Assembly (NCBI RefSeq): GCF_011762045.1 | Contig: NZ_JAASQS010000004.1 | Span: 248,001-312,000 of the forward strand | From: Rhizomicrobium electricum | GTDB lineage: Bacteria; Pseudomonadota; Alphaproteobacteria; Micropepsales; Micropepsaceae | DNA: 64,000 nucleotides | Direction: 5' to 3' | Shown here: piece by piece, positions 9,339 through 61,704 of the stretch | Layout of the letters: every line of letters begins with the position of its first letter | How positions within the stretch are numbered: position 1 is the first letter of the stretch | The notes under the pieces: model-generated | Seen by the model: only the letters and a program-made list of their open reading frames with translations | What the model was told of the DNA's origin: nothing | Databases searched by the model: none | Position numbers and translations under genes: made by a program

Positions 9339-11540
9339 CTATCCGGCGCGCGCCGCTTCCGTCAGCGCGTCTTCCAGGGCTTTCACGGCGGCGCGGTTGC
9401 CATTCGCCTTTGCGGCGGCATTCCGGATGGTGTCGCGTTTTGCGCCTTCGTGCGCGAAGCGGATAGCGCGGTCCACGTATTCTTCCTGCGATGACGCGAT
9501 CCCGTCCGTGATCCCGATTTGCCGCAGGAGGCCGGCCGCCAGGCGCTGCCGCAGGAAGGCGCCTTCCAGGGTGACGATCGGCAAACCGCGATGGACGGCC
9601 TGCCACGCGGTGGTGTAGCCGGAAAACGCCGGGCAATCCAAATACACGTCCATCGCGTCGAGGAAGCCGGCGAATTCGTCGGGCGCGAGCCACGGCATCA
9701 CCCGCAAATGCGCGTCGGGATCGAGGCCTTCGGCGCGAAACGCTGCGGCGAGCCGGTCGCGCAATTTTGCCGTGGCCCAGTGGAGTTTCTTCCGCGGCGC
9801 CAAGAGCCAGAACTCGCTGGGACCGACAGCCTTGGCAATGCGGGCGATGAGGCCGTCGTCGGCGGGATCGAATTTGATCGGCTGGTGACACAAGGCAAAA
9901 CGCACCGTGCCGCTTGCGGCAGATGGGGGAGCCCACGGTTTCGCCGATCCGGCGGGCGCCTCCATGCAGACTCCGGTGCCGGGCAGGCGCACGAGCCGTT
10001 CGCGATAGTGCCGCTCGGCGTCCGGCCCTTCGAGCAAATCGCCGGACAGAAACACATCGATGGTCGGCAGGCCGGTGGTGACCGGATGGCCCCAACCCGC
10101 CGCCTGCACCGGCGCCAGGCGAAGCGCGGCGAGCGTGCAAGCCGTGGGGTCCATGCCGACTTCGGGATAGAAGATCACGTCCGGGGTGTCGTGCTTGATG
10201 GCGTCGATCCAAACCCGAACGGATTTCGGCCCGGCAACGAAGCGGCTGACCTGGGCAGCAGCCCACGCGGCTTCGTCCCCTGTCGCGGCTTGCGTGTGAT
10301 AAAAGAAAATCTCGAACCGCTGACGGTCAAGCTGCGCCACGATCCCGCGCAGGATGACTTCCCAAACGGGATGATGCCGCCGCACTTGTCCGCTGACGAT
10401 GCCGAGGCGGATTTTATCGCGCCGCACGGCGCAAGGCATTTCCGGATGCCAGTACTCCGCCGCCGCCGCACTGGCGAGATCGCCATAGCGGGAAAGAAGC
10501 GCGCCGGTATCGCTCGGCCGGTAAGCCAGATAAAACGGCTGCATGGTTCCGATCGCCTTGCCCAGCTTGCCGGGATTGGCGCGGCTCCAGGTCTCCAACG
10601 CCGTGAGGGCCTCAGCGAAGTCTTCCGCCGCACCGGTGCTTTGGCGGACATCCTCGGCGAAGACCGGAATCGCCGCGATGGTCTCGCCGAGTTTCGCTTC
10701 GGCAAAATCGGGCTGGATCGCCAGAGCGCGGCGGAACGACTCGGCGGCTTCTTTGGCGTGGCCTTGTTCCATCAGGATCATGCCCAGCGTCTTGTGCGCT
10801 TCGGCGTAATCGGGCTTGGCGCGCAAAGCCTCGCGGCACGCCGCCGCCGCCTCGTCCAACTGTTCGGTCCCGATGAGGACGAGCGCGAGATTGCCGTGCG
10901 CTTCGGCGAAAGCCGGTTTGATTGCCAGCGCGCGGCGATACGAAGCCGCGGCCTCTTCGAGCTTGCCCTGCAGCCGGAACAGACTGCCGATGTTGTTGTG
11001 GACCTCGGCGAAGTTCGGGTTGGCGGCCAGAACCTGCCGGTACGCCGCCATGGCCTCGTCCGGCAATCCTTCCGCCATGAGAACGTTACCGAGACAGAAG
11101 AGGGCCTGATGATGGTTCGGCTTCAGTTTCAGGGCTTGCCGGAACGATGCCGCCGCTTCGTCGAGCGAGTTCGCGGCCTGAAGAACGAGGCCGAGATGAT
11201 AATGCGCGTCGACATGATCCGGCTTGAGCGCCAGCGCCCGGCGATAGGACGCCGCTGCGGCATCCAGCTTGCCTTGCTCCTTCAGAGCGTTGCCGAGATT
11301 GTTGTGGAACGACGGAACCTTGTCGTTCTGGCCGATCGCTTTGCCGATCCAGTCGACGGCCGCATCGAACTGCCCGCGCTGAAGCGCAGCCACGCCCAGA
11401 AGATGCAAGGCATCGGCATGGCGCGGATCGAGCGCGAGGATGTTGCGGTAAAGCTGCTCCGCATCGTTCAGGCGGCCCGCTTGATGATGGCGCAGCGCCA
11501 GAGCGAACATGTCCTGCAGCCGCTTCGGCGGTTGTTCCAT
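9339..11540 (-). CDS. TPR protein with GT41/SPINDLY-like glycosyltransferase domain
   Basis: The 733-aa product has about eight tetratricopeptide repeats in residues 1-290, each with the pattern AxxxLGxxLxxxGxxxxAxxxxxxAL. A C-terminal domain resembles the GT41 (O-GlcNAc transferase-like, SPINDLY) family. It shows KIRLGIVSGQVRRHHPVW near the domain start, HPVTTGLPTIDVFLS, FALCHQPIKFDP, and the UDP-sugar end motif YTTAWQAVHRGLPIVTLEG. In bacteria such proteins glycosylate proteins or take part in polysaccharide synthesis; the acceptor is unknown. It is single, with a GGAAAGGG ribosome site, and convergent with nothing in its family nearby. The family is clear and the substrate is not. Confidence 0.85.
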   Translation of the reverse strand: MEQPPKRLQDMFALALRHHQAGRLNDAEQLYRNILALDPRHADALHLLGVAALQRGQFDAAVDWIGKAIGQNDKVPSFHNNLGNALKEQGKLDAAAASYRRALALKPDHVDAHYHLGLVLQAANSLDEAAASFRQALKLKPNHHQALFCLGNVLMAEGLPDEAMAAYRQVLAANPNFAEVHNNIGSLFRLQGKLEEAAASYRRALAIKPAFAEAHGNLALVLIGTEQLDEAAAACREALRAKPDYAEAHKTLGMILMEQGHAKEAAESFRRALAIQPDFAEAKLGETIAAIPVFAEDVRQSTGAAEDFAEALTALETWSRANPGKLGKAIGTMQPFYLAYRPSDTGALLSRYGDLASAAAAEYWHPEMPCAVRRDKIRLGIVSGQVRRHHPVWEVILRGIVAQLDRQRFEIFFYHTQAATGDEAAWAAAQVSRFVAGPKSVRVWIDAIKHDTPDVIFYPEVGMDPTACTLAALRLAPVQAAGWGHPVTTGLPTIDVFLSGDLLEGPDAERHYRERLVRLPGTGVCMEAPAGSAKPWAPPSAASGTVRFALCHQPIKFDPADDGLIARIAKAVGPSEFWLLAPRKKLHWATAKLRDRLAAAFRAEGLDPDAHLRVMPWLAPDEFAGFLDAMDVYLDCPAFSGYTTAWQAVHRGLPIVTLEGAFLRQRLAAGLLRQIGITDGIASSQEEYVDRAIRFAHEGAKRDTIRNAAAKANGNRAAVKALEDALTEAARAG

Positions 11541-13948: not shown

Positions 13949-15259
13949 ATGTCCAACCGCGCACTTCTTCTTGCCACCGCTCTCGCCTTTTCTCTCGCGC
14001 CGTTCGCCTCCGCCGATGTCGTCCATCCCGGCTGGGCCAGGAACGCGACCATTTATGAAGTGAATGTGCGCCAGTATTCGCCCGACAGCGCGCTTTCGGC
14101 GGTGACCAAGGATCTGCCGCGGCTGAAGACCATGGGCATCGACATCGTCTGGCTGATGCCGATCCATCCCATCGGCAAGGAGCACAGGAAAGGCCCGCTC
14201 GGCAGCTACTATTCGGTCGCCGACTACAAGGCGGTCAATCCCGAGTTCGGCACCATGGACGATCTCAAGACGCTGGTCGCGCGCGCCCACGGCCTCGGCA
14301 TGAAGGTCATCCTCGATTGGGTGCCCAATCACACCGCCTGGGACAATCCCTGGGTCAAAGACCATCCCGAGTGGTACCTGAAGGACGAGACCGGCAAGAT
14401 CGGGCCGGTGACGTTCGGCTCCGGCGCCGACAAGCAGGTGTGGGAAGACGTCGTCGGCCTCGATTACAAAGTGCCGGCGTTGCGCGCGGCGATGATCGAC
14501 GCCATGGCGTTCTGGATCAAAACCGCCGACGTCGACGGCTTCCGTGAGGACGTCGCCACCAACGTGCCGGTCGATTTCTGGAACGAAGCGCGGCGCGAGT
14601 TGGACAAGATCAAGCCGGTGTTCATGCTGGCCGAGTCCGACAAGCCGGAGCTGCAGCAAGACGCCTTCGATATGACTTATGGCTGGGATTTCTACCATGT
14701 CCTGGTCAAATCGGCGAAAACCGGCGATGCCGACGTCTTGCGCGATTTCTTCGCTCATCCGCCCAAGACCTATCCGGCGGGCTCGTATCGGATGGAGTTC
14801 ACCTCCGATCATGACGAGAATTCCTGGGCCGGGTCCGATACCGAGCTCTACGGCAAGGCGTTCAAGCCGTATGCGGTGATCGCCGCCACCGTGCCCGGCA
14901 TGCCACTGGTTTATTCGGGGCAGGAGTCCGGCCTCGACAAGCGGCTCAAATTCTTCGAGAAGGACCCGATCGCCTGGAAGAACTATCCGCTGGCGGATTT
15001 TTATCGCGGCCTGCTGACGCTCAAGCACGACACGCCGGCGCTCTGGAACGACAACGCCGCGATGGACGTGCTCGATCCGCACAATGCGCACGTCTTCGCC
15101 TTCCGGCGCGCGAAGGACGGTCACAGCGTGACGGTGACGGTGAATCTTTCGGACAAGGTGCAGGTGGTGAAAGGCGCGGGTCTGAAACCCGGTGCGCTCA
15201 AGCCGTATGCCTGGACGATCTCTCTAAAAGAGGCGTCTACCCGAAAATCAGCGCGCTGA
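13949..15259 (+). CDS. Exported GH13 alpha-amylase family protein
   Basis: The 436-aa product has a signal peptide (MSNRALLLATALAFSLAPFASA) and a compact GH13 barrel. The catalytic triad is visible: nucleophile Asp201 in GFRED, acid/base Glu229 in MLAESD, and transition-state Asp289 in SDHDEN; region I is DWVPNHTAWDN. It hydrolyses or rearranges alpha-1,4-glucans in the periplasm. The start at 13949 is supported by GGAGAGGG at 13939-13946 and the signal peptide; an upstream in-frame ATG at 13847 lies inside the palindromic element and is unlikely. It follows the GH97 gene in the same direction. Its 3' end overlaps the small minus-strand gene by 23 nt. Confidence 0.92.
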   Translation: MSNRALLLATALAFSLAPFASADVVHPGWARNATIYEVNVRQYSPDSALSAVTKDLPRLKTMGIDIVWLMPIHPIGKEHRKGPLGSYYSVADYKAVNPEFGTMDDLKTLVARAHGLGMKVILDWVPNHTAWDNPWVKDHPEWYLKDETGKIGPVTFGSGADKQVWEDVVGLDYKVPALRAAMIDAMAFWIKTADVDGFREDVATNVPVDFWNEARRELDKIKPVFMLAESDKPELQQDAFDMTYGWDFYHVLVKSAKTGDADVLRDFFAHPPKTYPAGSYRMEFTSDHDENSWAGSDTELYGKAFKPYAVIAATVPGMPLVYSGQESGLDKRLKFFEKDPIAWKNYPLADFYRGLLTLKHDTPALWNDNAAMDVLDPHNAHVFAFRRAKDGHSVTVTVNLSDKVQVVKGAGLKPGALKPYAWTISLKEASTRKSAR

Positions 15260-15431
15260 GGATCAGGCCCATCACGGCGATGGTGGCGACCGACAGGAGC
15301 GGGCGGGCATGGTCGACGGACCAGGACACCGCGGCGCCGCGGCGGCCGTTGCGTTCCTCGAGCTCCATCGCCAGCCAGTCTTCGGTCTCGGCGGCGGTGC
15401 AAACGATACTGGTCGCGTGTTCCTGGGACAT
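15237..15431 (-). CDS. Small single-pass membrane protein
   Basis: The 64-residue product has a soluble, Glu-rich N-terminal part and one C-terminal transmembrane helix (LLSVATIAVMGLILSALIFG), so it looks like a tail-anchored protein. GGAGG lies 7 nt before the ATG at 15431; an in-frame GTG at 15443 would place the ribosome site inside the gene and is less likely. It overlaps the end of the GH13 gene on the other strand by 23 nt. No family is recognised and no function can be inferred. Confidence 0.55.
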   Translation of the reverse strand: MSQEHATSIVCTAAETEDWLAMELEERNGRRGAAVSWSVDHARPLLSVATIAVMGLILSALIFG

Positions 15432-15573
15432 GCTGGCCTCCACAGCGCCAGAGTGACCGCGGGGTCGTTAGCGTAGGGTTAGCATTGCCGGGGAAATTGT
15501 GCGCGTTCCGGCATTTGCCGCCGACCGTTGCCGGAAAGCCGCGCCGCCGGCGCGAACCGACGCGCGGTTCGCT

Positions 15574-16458
15574 CTAGCCTTGTCCGGCCTCGGGGTTGCG
15601 GGACCACAGCCGCTGGGTCACCGCTTCGCGCTCTTTCGCCAGCGTTTTGATGGCCGCCGCATGCGACTTGAAGCGGGCGGCATCGCGGGTGCCGTAGAAC
15701 GCCATGTCGAAGCCATGGGCGTACCAGCCGGACTTGGCGGCGGCCAGATCGTCGAGCATGCGGGTGTACTCGGCGATCAGGTCGGCATCGATCTGGCGCA
15801 AGCGGGCACTGTCGGCTTCGGCGCTGTCGGCGAGCGCAGCAACAGCCGCTTGTCTCGCCGCCGAGGTCGTGTGCAGCGCGGCGAGTGCGGTCCGGAACTT
15901 GGCCGCGGCGGCGGTATCGCGGTCGCGGCAGGACTGCTCGACGGCTTGCGTCTGTTTCAGCTTTTCGCGGGCGCGCTCGAGCCCCTTTTGCGATCCGAGA
16001 CTGACGGGGCGCATGAATTTCGGAAAGCCGACCTGATCCAGTTCGGCCTGACAGGCGTTGGCGTTCATAATCACCTGGGCGGCGTAGTCGTTCTCCAGCA
16101 TCCGCGGCGATTGCCAGCGCGTATCGTCGACCCAATCGAAACCGGCTTTGCGCGCGAGCTGCGGACCGAAATTGACCAGGATCACCGCCAGCAGCAGGAC
16201 CGGCAGGAGATTGAAGCCTTGCCACACACGGCTGTTGCGCTGGAGCGCCGCGCAAACGCCATAGGTCAAACCCCATACGATGAAGCAAATCGCGATTTCG
16301 GCGCCCCAGAGATACATCTGCGGCGCCCGCCCGGCGGGGCCAACGGCACGGCCAAGATCTTCAAGTTCGAGACGATAAAACCATGTGCCGTAAACCGTCG
16401 CGGCGACGACGATCGCCATGACGATGACGGAAAGCCATTTATTGCGGTGTTCTTCCAC
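15574..16458 (-). CDS. Membrane protein with coiled-coil domain, function unknown
   Basis: The 294-aa product has an N-terminal transmembrane helix (residues 8-27), a second at about 50-70 (AEIAICFIVWGLTYGVCAAL) and a third at about 80-98. A soluble domain of about 190 residues follows that is rich in Ala, Lys and Glu and likely forms long helices or a coiled coil (KGLERAREKLKQTQAV and later). I do not recognise the family. It is a single gene, divergent from lpxC. The membrane part is well supported; anything beyond that is not. Confidence 0.7.
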   Translation of the reverse strand: MEEHRNKWLSVIVMAIVVAATVYGTWFYRLELEDLGRAVGPAGRAPQMYLWGAEIAICFIVWGLTYGVCAALQRNSRVWQGFNLLPVLLLAVILVNFGPQLARKAGFDWVDDTRWQSPRMLENDYAAQVIMNANACQAELDQVGFPKFMRPVSLGSQKGLERAREKLKQTQAVEQSCRDRDTAAAAKFRTALAALHTTSAARQAAVAALADSAEADSARLRQIDADLIAEYTRMLDDLAAAKSGWYAHGFDMAFYGTRDAARFKSHAAAIKTLAKEREAVTQRLWSRNPEAGQG

Positions 16459-38789: not shown

Positions 38790-39091
38790 GGGACGTGCTT
38801 CTGTTGCCCGGTGCACGTCCCAAAACCGCGCTTGTCTAACTAGAAGTTAGGCAGCGAGGGCCATTTCATTGTCGTTGGCACCTATACAGACAGCCCGATA
38901 ACGGCGGATACCATACCGAGCGAAAGGTCAACCTTTACACGTCTGTCGATCCTATTTCGCCCCCACATGCCCCTTCGAAAAGGGCTCCCGCTTCTAGCCG
39001 GGAGGAAGTGGTGGAGGCGCCGGGTACCGCCCCCGGGTCCAGTCCGCTTATTACGAAGCCGTTTATCGCCGTAGTCCGGCCGAAGCCGGAC
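38790..39091 (-). ncRNA. ssrA: tmRNA, circularly permuted two-piece form
   Basis: On the minus strand the acceptor piece comes first (about 39091 to 39009) and ends CGCCTCC-A-CCA. A 44-nt spacer (39008-38965) follows, then the coding piece starting GGGGGCGAAATAGGATCGAC at 38964. GGGGGCG pairs with CGCCTCC over 7 bp, and the third pair is G-U, the identity mark for alanyl-tRNA synthetase. The T arm is CCGGG/CCCGG. The tag frame at 38879-38847 reads ANDNEMALAA plus TAA, followed by a CTAACT/AGTTAG hairpin. The order is the permuted arrangement known from alphaproteobacteria. The 3' boundary is uncertain; a 9-bp hairpin (GGGACGTGC/GCACGTCCC, 38790-38821) may mark it. Confidence 0.95.
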
Positions 39092-39097
39092 AGTGCT

Positions 39098-39126
39098 AAT
39101 ATAGGGGGTGGCGTGGCCAATTTGAA
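39098..39126 (-). promoter_or_regulatory. Likely ssrA promoter
   Basis: On the minus strand TATATT (39103-39098) is a good -10 element and TTCAAA (39126-39121) a weak -35, with 17 bp between. Transcription would begin near 39091, just before the acceptor piece. It lies back to back with the GTG start of the next plus-strand gene. Confidence 0.5.
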
Positions 39127-39140
39127 GGGCGGGGGCGGAC

Positions 39141-55547: not shown

Positions 55548-56657
<1,110 letters not shown>

Positions 56658-56684
56658 TCGGCTGTCACGCAGGACATTACGGAA

Positions 56685-56712
56685 AAGGCGGTGCTCCGGC
56701 GCCGCCTTTTTT
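56685..56712 (+). terminator. Intrinsic terminator after ilvC
   Basis: GGCGGTGC (56687-56694) pairs with GCGCCGCC around TCCG and is followed by six T. It ends the ilv operon, downstream of the duplicated ilvC tail. Confidence 0.9.
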
Positions 56713-56848
56713 GTTGGCGCAGATTAGACATCCTCCAATCGGCACCGTCTAACCGGCGTCGCGCCCCCGTGCTAATCTTCCTGCGGTCGGCGGCCACCGC
56801 CGATGGGGCTTGCAGCGCATCCGCGCCGCACAAAGGGGGAGATCAATC

Positions 56849-57571
56849 ATGCCGCAAGACGGCTTGTTTTTCCGTGTATTACGTCGCTTCAACATGATCC
56901 TGGTCGCGATCATCTGCCTGGCGCTGATCGCGTTCGTCGGCTGGCATCTGTACAAGACGCCTGCGTTACGCGGCAGTTTGCTGGGCTATCATCATGCCAT
57001 CGCCAAGCCACTGGTGACCAAGGCGCAGGTCGCGATCCAGCCGGAGAATTACGGCACGCCGGACACCATCTATGGTCCGCACCTGAACACCGTGCTGGTG
57101 CTCAACCGCAATATGCCGTTCCCGACCGCCGAAGCGCCGGAGGCGTTCGAGAACTATGTGCCGAGGCAGGCGCTCAACATCATGGTGCTGGACGAGAAGA
57201 CCGGCACCGGCCATTGGCTGTTCGCCGACAACAAGCAGATCATCACCATGCGTGATGCGCTTTACGAAGGCGAAGCGGTCGCCCGCACGACGCCGGCCAC
57301 CGATACGCGTCCGGTGCTTGGCATGGTGATGGTGGTGGTGCCCGATGCCGCGGCCAAAACGGCCAAGCTGCAAGCGATCTATGCCTGGACCAAGCAGCTC
57401 GGGACCGCGAAGAAGCTGGTCGACACGGACGAGATGGTCTCCATCTCCCAGACCGCCGAAAACCGCTATGTGGTGATCTACCGGAAAGGCCCGGCGACGC
57501 GATCCGCCACTTATTCGGTGCCGGATTTCAAGCTCCTGTCGGATGTGGAGCTGCCGGCCGCGCCGAAGTAA
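56849..57571 (+). CDS. Membrane-anchored paralog family, member 1
   Basis: The 240-aa product is the first of three related proteins (also at 59481 and 60200). The shared layout is a short N-terminus with FFRVLRRFN, one transmembrane helix at about residues 15-37, and a periplasmic domain. That domain has a segment GHWLFADNKQIIT (WLF motif) and a C-terminal ending YSVPDFKLLSDVELP. Unlike the other two it has no EF-hand-like loop; the matching position reads VPDAAAKTAKLQAIYAW. GGGGGAGA precedes ATG 56849. No function is known to me. Confidence 0.75.
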   Translation: MPQDGLFFRVLRRFNMILVAIICLALIAFVGWHLYKTPALRGSLLGYHHAIAKPLVTKAQVAIQPENYGTPDTIYGPHLNTVLVLNRNMPFPTAEAPEAFENYVPRQALNIMVLDEKTGTGHWLFADNKQIITMRDALYEGEAVARTTPATDTRPVLGMVMVVVPDAAAKTAKLQAIYAWTKQLGTAKKLVDTDEMVSISQTAENRYVVIYRKGPATRSATYSVPDFKLLSDVELPAAPK

Positions 57572-57591
57572 GCGGCTTCTGCCGTACGACG

Positions 57592-57620
57592 AAAGGCGGC
57601 GCTCCGGCGCCGCCTTTTTT
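57592..57620 (+). terminator. Intrinsic terminator after paralog 1
   Basis: GGCGGCGC pairs with GCGCCGCC around TCCG, followed by six T (57615-57620). It is almost identical to the terminator after ilvC about 900 bp upstream, so one may derive from the other. Confidence 0.9.
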
Positions 57621-57624
57621 GCAT

Positions 57625-57801
57625 TTTCTGCCCCCGCGGGCGCAAAATTCTCATCACATGTTCGTAGACCGTGGGGGAAGTCCGGCGCAGCCGGAAAGGG
57701 GGCTAATTCACTTCTTCGCGAGCCCCCTACGGCGCTTCGCGCCACTTCCCCCGCGATCTCAGTGCGCGTTGAAAAATCGTGTTCGCTCGCGGGGGCAGAA
57801 A
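57625..57801. repeat. Nested palindromic element, family P2
   Basis: The 177-nt element has perfect 14-bp ends, TTTCTGCCCCCGCG (57625-57638) and CGCGGGGGCAGAAA (57788-57801). Inside are further inverted parts: GTGGGGGAAGT with ACTTCCCCC, and GGGGGCT with AGCCCCC. It fills most of the 314-nt gap between paralog 1 and the peptidase gene and has no gene. A short relative lies after thyA at 41099. Confidence 0.8.
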
Positions 57802-57885
57802 GACGCGACTGCGGCATTTATGGTATCGACGTGCGAAGGTGCGCGGGCGATCTTCGCGGCGGTCACATAGAGGAAGTTACCGCCA

Positions 57886-59229
57886 ATGTTGAGGTCGTTC
57901 GCGTTTGTCGCTGTTGCCGCGCTGGTAATGCCGTCGTTTGCCGGTTCGGTCGAAACCGCCGTGCAACTGCGCGACAAGGCGCTGACCGACACGACGGCCT
58001 GGGCCATCGTCGAAACGCTCACGTCCGAGGTCGGGCCGCGGCCGATCGGCAGCGCCGCCTACAATCGTTCGCGCGATTGGGCCGTCGCCAAGCTCACGGC
58101 GTTCGGCTTCACCAATGTGCATGTCGAAACCTTCGTCAAACCGGCGTGGAGCCGCGGCGCCGAAAGCGCCGAGATCGTCGGCGCCCATTCGCAGAAGCTT
58201 GCGGTGCTCGGGCTCGGCTATTCGGTGCCGACGCCGAAAGCCGGCATCGAAGCGCCGGTCGTTGTGTTCGGCTCCTATCGCGAAATGCTGGCGCAGCCGC
58301 CGGGATCGCTCAAAGGCAAGATCGTGCTCGTCAACCAGCCGATGACCCGCACCCAGGACGTTTCCGGGTACGCTGCGGCCGTGGTTGCACGCAACGGCGA
58401 TGCCGAAGCGGCCATGCGCGGCGCCGTCGCGTATCTGGTGCGTTCGATCGCGACCGGAACCGGCCGTGCTCCGCACACCGGTGCGACCTGGGGACCGGGG
58501 CCGCATATTCCGTGCGCCGCGCTCGGCGTGCCCGATGCCGATCTGGTGGCCTCGCTGGCCCGCCACGAGACCGTCCGTATACGGCTGAAACTGCAATCCT
58601 CCCTCGACCAGAAGGCGGTGGCGTTCGACGTTTCCGGCGAGATCAAAGGCCGCGAACGGCCCGACGAGGTGATCGTCATCGGCGGCCATCTCGATTCCTG
58701 GGATCCGGGCACCGGCGCGCTCGACGACGGCGCCGGGATCGCGATCACCACCGCCGCCGCCAAGCTGATCGGCGATCTTCCCGCCCATCCGCGCCGCACC
58801 ATTCGCGTCGTCTGGTGGGGCTCGGAAGAGAACGGCGGTTCGTCGGAGGCCTATGCCAAGGCGCATGCGGGCGAGAAGTTCGTCATCGCCGGCGAAGCCG
58901 ATCTCGGCGGCGATCACGCCTATATGGTGGCCGTGCCGCAGGGCCTGCCGGGTCTCGACGAGGTAATGGCGCCGCTGAAGACGATCGTGTCGCGTGCGAT
59001 GCCGCGCAACGGCGGAGCCGATATCCACGGATTGGAAGAGGCGGGCGTGCCGGTTCTGGTCGTGCTCAACGATGCGTCGCGCTATTTCGATTATCATCAC
59101 TCGGCCGACGATACGCTGGCGGTGGTCGATTCCGACGGGTTGAAGCAGAACGTCGCCGTCTGGGCTGGCCTCGTTTACCTGATCGCCGAGTCCGACATCG
59201 ATTTCCGCAAAGTGCCGGCGGCGAAATAA
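57886..59229 (+). CDS. Exported M28 family zinc peptidase
   Basis: The 447-aa product has a signal peptide (MLRSFAFVAVAALVMPSFAG) and an M28 peptidase fold interrupted by a PA-like insert (residues about 100-230), like carboxypeptidase Q. Zinc and catalytic residues: His268 and Asp270 in GGHLDSWDPG, Asp in GALDDGAG, Glu314/Glu315 in GSEENGG, the acid in GEADLGGD, and His in YHHSADD near residue 404. It cleaves amino acids from peptides in the periplasm. AGAGGAAG precedes the ATG. It is placed between paralogs 1 and 2 of the unknown family. Confidence 0.9.
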   Translation: MLRSFAFVAVAALVMPSFAGSVETAVQLRDKALTDTTAWAIVETLTSEVGPRPIGSAAYNRSRDWAVAKLTAFGFTNVHVETFVKPAWSRGAESAEIVGAHSQKLAVLGLGYSVPTPKAGIEAPVVVFGSYREMLAQPPGSLKGKIVLVNQPMTRTQDVSGYAAAVVARNGDAEAAMRGAVAYLVRSIATGTGRAPHTGATWGPGPHIPCAALGVPDADLVASLARHETVRIRLKLQSSLDQKAVAFDVSGEIKGRERPDEVIVIGGHLDSWDPGTGALDDGAGIAITTAAAKLIGDLPAHPRRTIRVVWWGSEENGGSSEAYAKAHAGEKFVIAGEADLGGDHAYMVAVPQGLPGLDEVMAPLKTIVSRAMPRNGGADIHGLEEAGVPVLVVLNDASRYFDYHHSADDTLAVVDSDGLKQNVAVWAGLVYLIAESDIDFRKVPAAK

Positions 59230-59480
59230 AATCCGGCCGTTGCATTGGTACTGCAATCCATTTGCAGGCGTGTCCGCCGCTGTCACGCGCGCGGGCACGC
59301 GGCCAAGTGCTTGATACGTCTGGCGGCCTTCGAACGGCGTCGCAGGGAAGACGAAATTTCGAAAACTCCCTTGAAGAATGCGGGAGGTTTCCCCATCTAG
59401 GCTATATCCCCATTCGTGTAGGCCGCCCCGCTCGCCAAGTCGCGCGCCGTTCGGCATGATGCGGGTGGTGGGACGGTGCG

Positions 59481-60185
59481 ATGGCTGGGTTTTTCAAAGT
59501 TCTGTGGCGCATCAATGCGGTACTGGCGTTCGTCGCGCTCGTGGCGGTGATCGGCTTCGTGGTGTTGTTCTCGAAAGAGCGGATCGACCGGCCGCTGCGC
59601 GATTATTTCGTGCCGCCGCCGGCCGCGGCGCGCGTTCCGGTCAAGCCGAGCTATCGCTATGAACTCGAAAAGGATTTGCTGATCGGCGCCGATACGGCGC
59701 ACGAGGACTTCGAGATTTATCGCCTGGTGCGCTGGAACAGGAATGTGCCGGCCACGTCGAATACGTCGGACATCGTCAATCTGTTGGTGAGCGACAAGAA
59801 ATCCGGCGGCAACAAATGGCTGTTCGCCGGTTTCGACCGCACCATCATCAACCAGGAAACGGTCCTCACCGGCCGCTGGTACTGGCGCGAGCCCGAGGCC
59901 GACGACGATGTGCCGGTCGAGATCGTGGTGTTGAAAGTGATCGAGGCGGACACCAACGGCGACGGCGCCCTGACGCTCGACGACCGCCAGACGCTGTATG
60001 TCGCCCGCTTCCCGGCGACGGGTCCGGTCAAACTCCTCACCGCCGATGCGGTGTGGTTCACGATGCAGAAGAACAAGGAATACCAGGTCGGCTATCGCGA
60101 GAAGGGCGAAGGCTTCCTCGCCACCTACGCGCTGCCCGATTTCACGCTGGTGTCGAAAACCAAGATCGAAGGAATGCCGAATTAG
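59481..60185 (+). CDS. Membrane-anchored paralog family, member 2
   Basis: The 234-aa product shares its layout with the genes at 56849 and 60200. It has FFKVLWRIN before a transmembrane helix (residues about 10-30), then a periplasmic domain with NKWLFAGFDRTIIN. An EF-hand-like loop follows at residues 157-168 (DTNGDGALTLDD), suited to calcium binding, and then PVKLLTADAVWF. The C-terminal YALPDFTLVSKTKI ends the protein. It is 15 nt upstream of member 3 and probably on the same transcript. Function is unknown; a calcium-sensing or envelope role is only a guess. The 251 nt before it hold nothing recognisable. Confidence 0.75.
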   Translation: MAGFFKVLWRINAVLAFVALVAVIGFVVLFSKERIDRPLRDYFVPPPAAARVPVKPSYRYELEKDLLIGADTAHEDFEIYRLVRWNRNVPATSNTSDIVNLLVSDKKSGGNKWLFAGFDRTIINQETVLTGRWYWREPEADDDVPVEIVVLKVIEADTNGDGALTLDDRQTLYVARFPATGPVKLLTADAVWFTMQKNKEYQVGYREKGEGFLATYALPDFTLVSKTKIEGMPN

Positions 60186-60199
60186 CCGAGGAGTATGCC

Positions 60200-60997
60200 A
60201 TGCCTGAAGAGAACCGGTTTTTCCGTTGGGTGTGGCGGTTCAATGCCGTGGTGATCGCACTGGCTGTGCTTGGTCTCCTGGGAATCGCGGCGGCCAGTTT
60301 CGTCGTAGGGTATCTGCATCCCTGGCAGAATGAAAAGCCGGAAGGTCATTTCACGCCGGTGCAGAACGCGGCGGAGGCGCACAACACCTATCGCCTGCGT
60401 TCAACGGGTACGATTGCATTCTTGAAAGCAGGCGGTGGGCAGGAAGTCGATCTCGTTTTTTCGCTCGGCAATTGGGAAGGCAGCCCGAACGAATACGGAT
60501 TGCAGCACATCAATAGATCAGGTTCTTACCGCGAGCCTTACAATGCCAATGTGTTGTTGGTGAGTTCCGAGACCGGTGACGGACGGTGGCTTTTCTCCGG
60601 TGTCGGCCGCAACATCCTGAGCTGGGATGCGGTGGTCGATCCCACGGCAAAAGATGCTTCCGAAATTGCTTCCGCCGAGCCGCAGGTCGTCTCGGCGCGC
60701 GGGCTCAACGGCGGTTTCAGCGCGGCGAAAGCGCTGGTGCTCAAGGTAGTCGATAAAGACACCGATAAGGACGGCGAATTGACGGCGAAGGATGGCCCGT
60801 CACTCTACACGTGGCGGCTCGGCGAGAAGACGCCGGTCAAGCTTCTGGATGCCGACCTCGTCACCTCGCAAACTCAGATTGGCGCCGATCGCTACGCCAT
60901 TTCCTACGAGAGCAAAGGTGCGGCTTTTCTCGCCGTCTATTCGGTGCCAGATTTCAAGCTCGTGATCAAGAAAACGCTGCCGAAGTTACCGGGTTAG
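60200..60997 (+). CDS. Membrane-anchored paralog family, member 3
   Basis: The 265-aa product is the longest of the trio: FFRWVWRFN before the helix (about residues 15-38), an insert near residues 50-105, and GRWLFSGVGRNILS. An EF-hand-like loop lies at 187-198 (DTDKDGELTAKD), followed by PVKLLDADLV and the ending YSVPDFKLVIKKTL. GAGGAG before ATG 60200 is a good ribosome site. It follows member 2 in tandem. All three share the N-terminal (F)FxxxxRxN motif and the SVPDF-like C-terminus, which defines the family. Confidence 0.75.
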   Translation: MPEENRFFRWVWRFNAVVIALAVLGLLGIAAASFVVGYLHPWQNEKPEGHFTPVQNAAEAHNTYRLRSTGTIAFLKAGGGQEVDLVFSLGNWEGSPNEYGLQHINRSGSYREPYNANVLLVSSETGDGRWLFSGVGRNILSWDAVVDPTAKDASEIASAEPQVVSARGLNGGFSAAKALVLKVVDKDTDKDGELTAKDGPSLYTWRLGEKTPVKLLDADLVTSQTQIGADRYAISYESKGAAFLAVYSVPDFKLVIKKTLPKLPG

Positions 60998-61054
60998 CTG
61001 TCGTCCCCGCGCCGATGGTGTAAAACGCCGGCCGGTTTCGGCTTGGAGAACGAG

Positions 61055-61453
61055 ATGCACGTCACCGGTCATTGTTATTGCCAGAAGATCAAGTTCGAAG
61101 CCGAGGCCGATCCGGCGGCCGTGCTGGTCTGCCATTGCACCGATTGCCAGGAGCTGACCGGCTCGACCTATCGTGTCGTGGTGGCGGCGAAGGACCTGAA
61201 GATTCTGTCCGGCACGCCGAAAGTCTGGATCAAGACGGCGGAGTCGGGGCGTCAGAAAGCGCATGCCTTCTGCGCCGATTGCGGTTCGCCGATTTATTCC
61301 GGCGCCCCCGATGGCAGTCTCGCCGCGGTCACCTTGCGCGTTGGCACGCTCGATCAGCGCCGCGAACTGGAGCCGCACAAACAAATCTGGACCCGCTCCG
61401 CACTGCCTTGGGCGCTCGATCTGCACGAATTGCCGGGGAACGAGAAACAGTAA
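61055..61453 (+). CDS. GFA/CENP-V family zinc protein
   Basis: The 132-aa product has the GFA fold with its two zinc sites: GHCYCQKI, VCHCTDCQELTG and FCADCGSPIYSG supply seven Cys. The family includes glutathione-dependent formaldehyde-activating enzyme, but most members have other or unknown roles, so I do not assign gfa. GGAGA precedes ATG 61055; TTG 61043 in frame is less likely. A P1 palindromic element begins 5 nt after the stop. Confidence 0.85.
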   Translation: MHVTGHCYCQKIKFEAEADPAAVLVCHCTDCQELTGSTYRVVVAAKDLKILSGTPKVWIKTAESGRQKAHAFCADCGSPIYSGAPDGSLAAVTLRVGTLDQRRELEPHKQIWTRSALPWALDLHELPGNEKQ

Positions 61454-61457
61454 CACC

Positions 61458-61637
61458 TGTCATCCCCGGCGGAGCAAGCGCAGCGCAGCGACGGGAAGGG
61501 GACCCAGGTGCGAGCGTTGTCGCGACGAAGAAGGTTTGGCACAGTGCCATTCCTTCAACGAAAGCCATTGGGGCGGGACCTGGGTTCCCTTCCCCTCGGA
61601 ATCTTCGCTGCGCTCGATCCCTCGGCCGGGAATGACA
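61458..61637. repeat. Nested palindromic element, family P1, copy 2
   Basis: The ends TGTCATCCCCGGC (61458-61470) and GCCGGGAATGACA (61625-61637) match with one mismatch. The inner arm GGGAAGGGGACCCAGGTG (61493-61510) is identical to that of copy 1 at 13793, and its partner near 61578-61595 has one mismatch. It lies between the GFA gene and the ABC transporter ATPase gene. Confidence 0.8.
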
Positions 61638-61704
61638 GTTATTTTTTCGCGGCCGATCGGCCGCCGCGCCTCGTGGCGCGAGCCCCGCGGCGTTTGAGCG
61701 AAAA

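Follow-up and report, generated by a model that had tools for sequence, protein, structure and literature searches.

Three neighbouring proteins encoded in a 64,000-nucleotide stretch of the Rhizomicrobium electricum genome (the window) form a real family that is so far unnamed, and are best explained, with a probability that we put at about one half, as membrane-tethered periplasmic partial beta-propellers that carry a calcium clip and would serve as binding modules, their copies turning over singly and independently of the M28 peptidase encoded among them. The peptidase gene is flanked by the three paralogs (members 1, 2 and 3), the whole set lying downstream of ilvC (Table 1); member 2 starts about 250 nt past the peptidase gene on the same strand, and member 3 starts 14 nt past the end of member 2. 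Upstream of member 1 are genes that we take to be ilvI, ilvN and ilvC, and past member 3 lie what are presumably a small GFA-like gene and then ABC transporter genes on the opposite strand. The neighbour peptidase scores 73.6 bits against the M28 profile (cut-off 21.3) and matches 3iib nearly over its full length (E 9.4e-86). A promoter scan of positions 56500-61700 found no promoter.

Table 1 Features of the locus, in positions of the window.
Feature	Positions	Strand	Description
Member 1 (P1)	56849..57571	+	240 aa; N-terminal helix and 12-strand partial propeller (model); acidic loop absent
M28 peptidase	57886..59229	+	447 aa; signal peptide judged by eye; neighbour of the trio
Member 2 (P2)	59481..60185	+	234 aa; helix 2-35 and 12-strand partial propeller (model)
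Member 3 (P3)	60200..60997	+	265 aa; same family by alignment
Member 2 loop DTNGDGALTLDD	59949..59984	+	residues 157-168, between strands 148-154 and 170-176
Member 3 loop DTDKDGELTAKD	60758..60793	+	residues 187-198
Terminator-like hairpin, copy 1	56684..56713	+	after ilvC; direct repeat of 57592-57621, 97%
Terminator-like hairpin, copy 2	57592..57621	+	20 nt after member 1

The original prediction held that the three proteins share one plan, and the FFxxxxRxN and WLF motifs and the PDF segment are indeed present in all of them, together with a hydrophobic stretch at the N-terminal end, in reading frames that were recovered where it had placed them. Homology within the trio goes beyond chance, since member 2, used as query in its own genome, retrieves member 3 with E 2.8e-15 and member 1 with E 3.1e-8; the sole other row of that search (E 0.6) has three internal stops, leaving no further credible copy. 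The profile search proposed as a check returned zero Pfam or NCBIfam families at cut-off for the trio; the family is uncharacterised, and none of the open-licence papers listed on partial propellers, calcium propellers, Tsi1 and Tni2 describes it. Sequence searches of the PDB gave chance-level matches, to calcium-binding proteins for the loop region (E 0.14 and worse) and to PQQ-like or designed propeller blades (E 0.05 to 0.16).

The best-conserved part of the family is the N-terminal FFxxxWRxN motif, with a mean pairwise identity of 0.46 as opposed to 0.22-0.25 in the sheets and 0.31 in the loop; most of it is missing from the P0006/L062 clade. Strong matches to this motif among 81 relatives are confined to the family or its remnant in G067, and its use as a module on unrelated proteins was discarded as an idea, the only two other matches being weak (E 0.005 and 0.03). 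Compared with the relative G051, member 2 has a dN/dS (one method) of 0.17-0.27 and member 3 one of 0.25, as against 0.03-0.12 for ilvN, ilvC, GFA and ABC and 0.11-0.22 for the M28 gene, and dS by the same method is about 1.0 for members 2 and 3 and 0.18-0.43 for the other genes. Members 2 and 3 appear from these values to be kept by purifying selection, yet to be fast-evolving.

Structure prediction points to a common fold. The model of member 2 (18-sequence alignment; pLDDT 79.3, pTM 0.66) and that of member 1 (28-sequence alignment; pLDDT 81.5, pTM 0.67), whose mean pLDDT is 79-82, each have one N-terminal helix followed by 12 strands in the order 1+4+4+3, the grouping into sheets being taken from this strand order; the 28-row alignment contains the 18-row one, so that the two models are not independent. 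Member 3 is a row in both alignments and was assigned its fold by alignment. The anticipated shared fold is therefore borne out by models alike in plan for members 1 and 2, and by alignment for member 3. Structure searches with both models return mainly propellers, and the best matches are beta-propeller chains: 2gop_A for member 2 (Z 10.6, rmsd 5.4, 133 aligned) and 6zon_B, a chain of the human 43S complex and presumably eIF3b, for member 1 (Z 9.7, rmsd 4.1, 136 aligned), each tied with its neighbouring rows. Member 1 further matches 6b12_B of the Tne2-Tni2 entry (Z 8.8, rmsd 4.0, 125 of 153 residues aligned), taken to be Tni2 because the C-terminus of Tni2 is given as Arg153 in passages of PMC10539506 and the chain has 153 residues, and 4fgi_B, a chain from the Tse1/Tsi1 entry (Foldseek E 7.9e-3) that we take for Tsi1 on account of the all-beta match. 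The TM-scores stay low (no more than 0.37 when normalised to the query length, and 0.46 when normalised to that of 6b12_B), and the partial-propeller fold class is therefore likely, short of proven. A blade repeat among the three sheets was sought by profile comparison and rejected, 15 to 21 of 60 column shuffles having equalled the score. At 12 strands to the chain in either model, the domain falls short of a closed beta-propeller, which needs at least four blades of four strands, and agrees, as predicted and with the grouping taken from strand order, with the Tsi1 type, in which some 150 residues form three antiparallel sheets. Altogether, the exported domain is likely to form only part of a beta-propeller, about three sheets.

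The same strand order would suit an exchanged edge strand, i.e., a composite propeller in which each chain would lend an edge strand to its neighbour, whose three-stranded last sheet it would complete, so that two or three chains, perhaps mixed paralogs, would close a full ring on the membrane, and oligomeric propellers are on record in parts of PMC6805158. However, Tsi1 reaches a similar sheet tally in one chain, as passages of PMC3391265 describe it, and a single profile match is found in 9/13 genomes with full-length members, so that mixing of paralogs is not required; we regard such a composite ring as rather unlikely.

The acidic loops that had been reported in members 2 and 3 were found in these proteins (Table 1). 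A D-x-[DN]-x-[DN] motif is present in 20/28 aligned members (11/19 from the order and 9/9 distant ones) and 8/28 have no loop. Although the search for this motif did not demand it, position 12 is D in 20/20 loops; position 8 is I, L or V in all 20/20, and position 9 is D in 5/20 and S, T or N in 15/20. The spacing of an EF-hand loop (12 residues; ligand positions 1, 3, 5, 9 and 12) is consequently found in 20/28 members; in EF-hands proper, position 12 is commonly E. The family has one loop per protein, and in the member 2 model it joins two strands rather than helices. Pfam EF-hand models match weakly (best E 0.059, 3/18 members), and the Dockerin_1 model gives a single weak match (E 0.0033, 1/18 members). 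Of the reading as an EF-hand or dockerin-type loop, the spacing thus stands and the helix-loop-helix and tandem loops fall: a strict EF-hand is contradicted by the strand flanks in the member 2 model together with the weak Pfam matches, and a type I dockerin, with its two tandem calcium loops and helices, by the single loop and its strand flanks. The loop is absent from member 1, as had been noted, and its supposed loss fits, short of proven: on the tree, loop state has undergone at least 4 changes, to which the tree gives no direction.

A parallel is offered by calcium-binding propeller blades (integrin alpha, PilY1, rhamnogalacturonan lyase, a fungal lectin), in which Dx[DN]xDG sits at the blade tip and an extra ligand lies two residues past the motif, according to parts of PMC3123361. 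The family motif is likewise in a blade hairpin, here a predicted one; at the position two residues after the motif, where these blades have their ligand, members 2 and 3 have T, and 5/20 family loops have D at position 9, which could fit both blade and EF-hand spacing. What sets the family apart from these blades is the D at position 12 of 20/20 loops, shared with EF-hands, and a propeller that is partial. The acidic loop is a candidate for, and probably is, a calcium-binding hairpin.

The family is patchily distributed. Within the order, 15/96 genomes match its profile (E 0.001), 13 of them with full-length members, the remaining two being G067, in which a remnant is left, and G084, whose short match was kept out of the full-length count. 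A class-wide sample yielded 1/385 genomes, the window's own. In a sample of the phylum, 7/398 genomes match at E 0.01, of which G000, G590 and G762 were judged credible and G531, G573, G581 and G668 (E 0.001 to 0.006) were dropped as short partial matches; a wider profile, which includes G000, G590 and G762 themselves, matches just these three of the 398 at E 0.001. A second row of G762 (L060) was set aside as another kind of protein, and, from another search, L022-L024 as frames of about 780 aa with E 7e-4 to 8e-4 that are absent with the profile. Further members were found in the order of G762 (6/197 genomes, G762 included, one of them, G957, with a contig-end piece of 41 residues) and in that of G590 (4/148, G590 included). 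The first profile, which contained no distant members, recognises the nine distant proteins of the 28-sequence set at E 6.5e-34 to 2.4e-7. The G762 group falls outside the class and is presumably gammaproteobacterial. A contig collection scanned with P0004 gave no relative, and with alignment A3 gave 5 loci, all in Alphaproteobacteria MAGs; a plasmid collection searched with P0004 and P0006 gave no match. As sampled here, the family would be rare and thinly spread, yet extends beyond the class, with matches so far within one phylum.

Neighbourhood comparison in relatives, which had also been proposed, shows that the position at ilvC recurs and that the link to M28 is inconsistent. At least one member lies downstream of ilvC in the same contig stretch in 10/13 genomes with full-length members, the stretches read in G022, G087 and G088 containing no ilvC, and in the alphaproteobacterial family f22 the vicinity of rnpA/yidD is a stable position. 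The original prediction placed the trio in a calcium-dependent envelope system, in which the paralogs would hold or regulate the exported M28 peptidase. The proximity and shared strand of member 2 and the peptidase gene speak for this, as does the member-2 clade, whose genes sit downstream of M28 at a distance of up to about 1.5 kb in 5/5 genomes, directly next to it in 4/5 and one gene away in G023; co-occurrence too is above independence, with family and M28 together in 7/96 genomes (Fisher p 0.003) and, for close orthologs only, in 5 (p 0.03), both values uncorrected for ancestry. However, such a system is mostly contradicted by the overall distribution, since 12/19 genomes of the order with M28 (of 96, at E 1e-30) have no family match and 6/13 genomes with full-length members have no M28 at the same threshold. 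G086 and G094 carry M28 on another contig than the member, and in the family-less M28 loci (8 of 12 read) M28 itself lies 0.1 to 3.4 kb past ilvC, with the two on one strand, in 7/8, the eighth being on a contig without visible ilvC. In G020, M28 is kept and the member-2-like gene is a fused remnant, and in G067 about 24 N-terminal residues remain after ilvC; these remnants therefore indicate independent decay of family genes. Distant members have no M28 neighbour among frames of 90 aa or more within about 10 kb on each side, and the distant clades share, besides the family, only neighbours that we take to be ABC-ATPase-like, kinase-like, efflux-pump-like and glutathione-transferase-like. Within the window, moreover, a terminator-like hairpin conserved in two relatives separates member 1 from the peptidase. 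The joint system is accordingly very improbable, and the M28 peptidase appears mostly to be an independent neighbour whose partnership is not well supported by these comparisons; a looser link to member 2 alone is compatible with them.

The hairpins also bear on the origin of member 1, which is flanked by two copies that are 97% identical. In G051 and G027 a single hairpin stands between ilvC and M28, with no member 1, and the DNA past it matches the window at 76 to 81%; the G016 locus has one hairpin downstream of ilvC, and the pattern is absent from the loci of G023, G064, G020 and G025. The case for these hairpins rests on their conservation, because a general terminator scan gave 3 sites as against 5.1 expected in shuffles, i.e., sites no commoner than by chance. 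Either an insertion that duplicated the hairpin brought in member 1, or recombination between the two hairpin copies removed it. The branch of member 1 is long (1.8 changes per column), which argues against a recent local duplication. The AU test does not reject a clade of member 1 with the copies of G063, G062 (9667-10314) and G023 (10418-10972), with a p-AU of 0.35, grouping with the member-2 clade has support 67/35, and grouping with the member-3 clade has p-AU 0.052, so that several placements would be compatible with the alignment.

Under the explanation that we prefer, each protein would be a single-pass inner-membrane protein anchored by FFxxxWRxN and one helix, with its N-terminus presumably in the cytoplasm and a predicted partial propeller of about three sheets exported. 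In most members a hairpin of the middle sheet would carry the EF-hand-spaced loop, which may coordinate a single periplasmic calcium ion and so stiffen the hairpin. By analogy with the partial propeller Tsi1, the domain, for which no enzyme family was recognised, is most likely a binding module, tethered to the membrane, for a protein or peptide partner. Copies would be gained and lost one at a time, mostly downstream of ilvC.

The same analogy suggests a more specific role, in which the proteins would be orphan immunity or inhibitor proteins, tethered Tsi1-like partial propellers that block the periplasm-acting toxins of competitors, the tandem, divergent copies forming a small defence array. 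The chains of similar size among the structural matches are immunity proteins (the Tsi1 entries and the Tne2-Tni2 entry), and such arrays would also fit the patchy spread, the divergence of the tandem copies, the gene remnants and the copy that lies between terminator-like hairpins and that relatives lack. Nevertheless, no toxin gene was recognised by eye beside members in the loci read, where the neighbours look housekeeping-like by eye and differ between clades, and defence (PADLOC) and phage libraries gave zero matches at E up to 0.1. The stable positions downstream of ilvC or near rnpA/yidD likewise speak against it, as does the type VI sheath family PF05591, present in 0/15 matching genomes of the order and 5/96 overall, although a victim of such toxins needs none. 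We consider this role unlikely. More doubtful still is a variant in which calcium-stiffened tethered propellers would constitute a movable array of inhibitors of periplasm-acting toxins, with copies entering at the ilvC terminator while old ones decay; if true, this would be a role akin to immunity that is exercised apart from any known secretion-system locus.

These results describe a protein family without curated Pfam or NCBIfam match, which combines a predicted partial propeller, a membrane anchor and an EF-hand-spaced calcium-type loop in a beta hairpin, and they weaken a tempting link to the neighbouring peptidase. The loop aspartates, the WRxN motif and the natural losses provide handles on what free-standing propeller fragments do. 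Among known systems, Tsi1, the immunity protein of Tse1 in Pseudomonas aeruginosa (which we take to be PA1845), is described as likewise a partial propeller, and is a structural match to the family models; in a profile search of PDB sequences neither Tsi1 nor Tni2 appeared at E up to 10. Passages of PMC3391265 portray Tsi1 as a small periplasmic protein whose three antiparallel sheets form a partial propeller, whose nearest Dali matches are to DPP IV and which is encoded together with its effector. It is exported by a leader according to the same passages, whereas the family is anchored by a conserved helix motif, and it has a disulfide and a C-terminal helix, whereas members 2 and 3 contain no cysteine and member 1 a single one, within the helix. 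Tni2, the immunity protein of the type VI NADase effector Tne2, is said in parts of PMC10539506 to have a distinct fold, not named there as a propeller. Its 153-residue chain in 6b12 is nearly all aligned to member 1. Propellers of the DPP IV, prolyl oligopeptidase and 2gop type, which are frequent best structural matches of the family domain, form complete rings on large enzymes; in contrast, the family would have about three sheets on a membrane anchor.

An imperfect inverted repeat separates member 1, the first of three membrane-anchored paralogs predicted to be partial beta-propellers, from the M28 peptidase gene, with a fold energy of -100 kcal/mol that is far more stable than that of shuffled sequences (z -7.0), and it lies at the equivalent position in two relatives (G051 and G027). 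Two-sided changes affect 3 of its 61 predicted pairs among the three sequences compared, over which the covariation term taken overall is unfavourable (+2.68). An Rfam scan of the palindrome returned nothing scoring near the gathering score, and the window contains a single match to a 13-base pattern of its core, against 0.26 expected. The same two relatives lack member 1 and carry a single copy of the terminator-like hairpin.

RNA and repeat features of the window
Feature	Coordinates	Strand	Location	Basis
Imperfect palindrome, 189 nt	57622-57810		between member 1 and M28	folding, comparison with relatives
Terminator-like hairpin, two near-identical copies	56684-56713 and 57592-57621		either side of member 1	
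tmRNA gene, alphaproteobacterial type	38790-39130	-		RNA model match

The permuted tmRNA model also scores at the tmRNA gene. In G023, the ilvC match (locus L034, 14695-15601) is split into two pieces that lie next to each other, one at 14695-14988 and the other at 14990-15601, which looks like a broken reading frame or an assembly error.

Among distant carriers, four genomes of alphaproteobacterial family f22 (G590, G1012, G1013 and G1072; loci L085-L088) each hold one gene of the paralog family at a conserved position, near what we take to be rnpA, yidD and a yidC-like gene.
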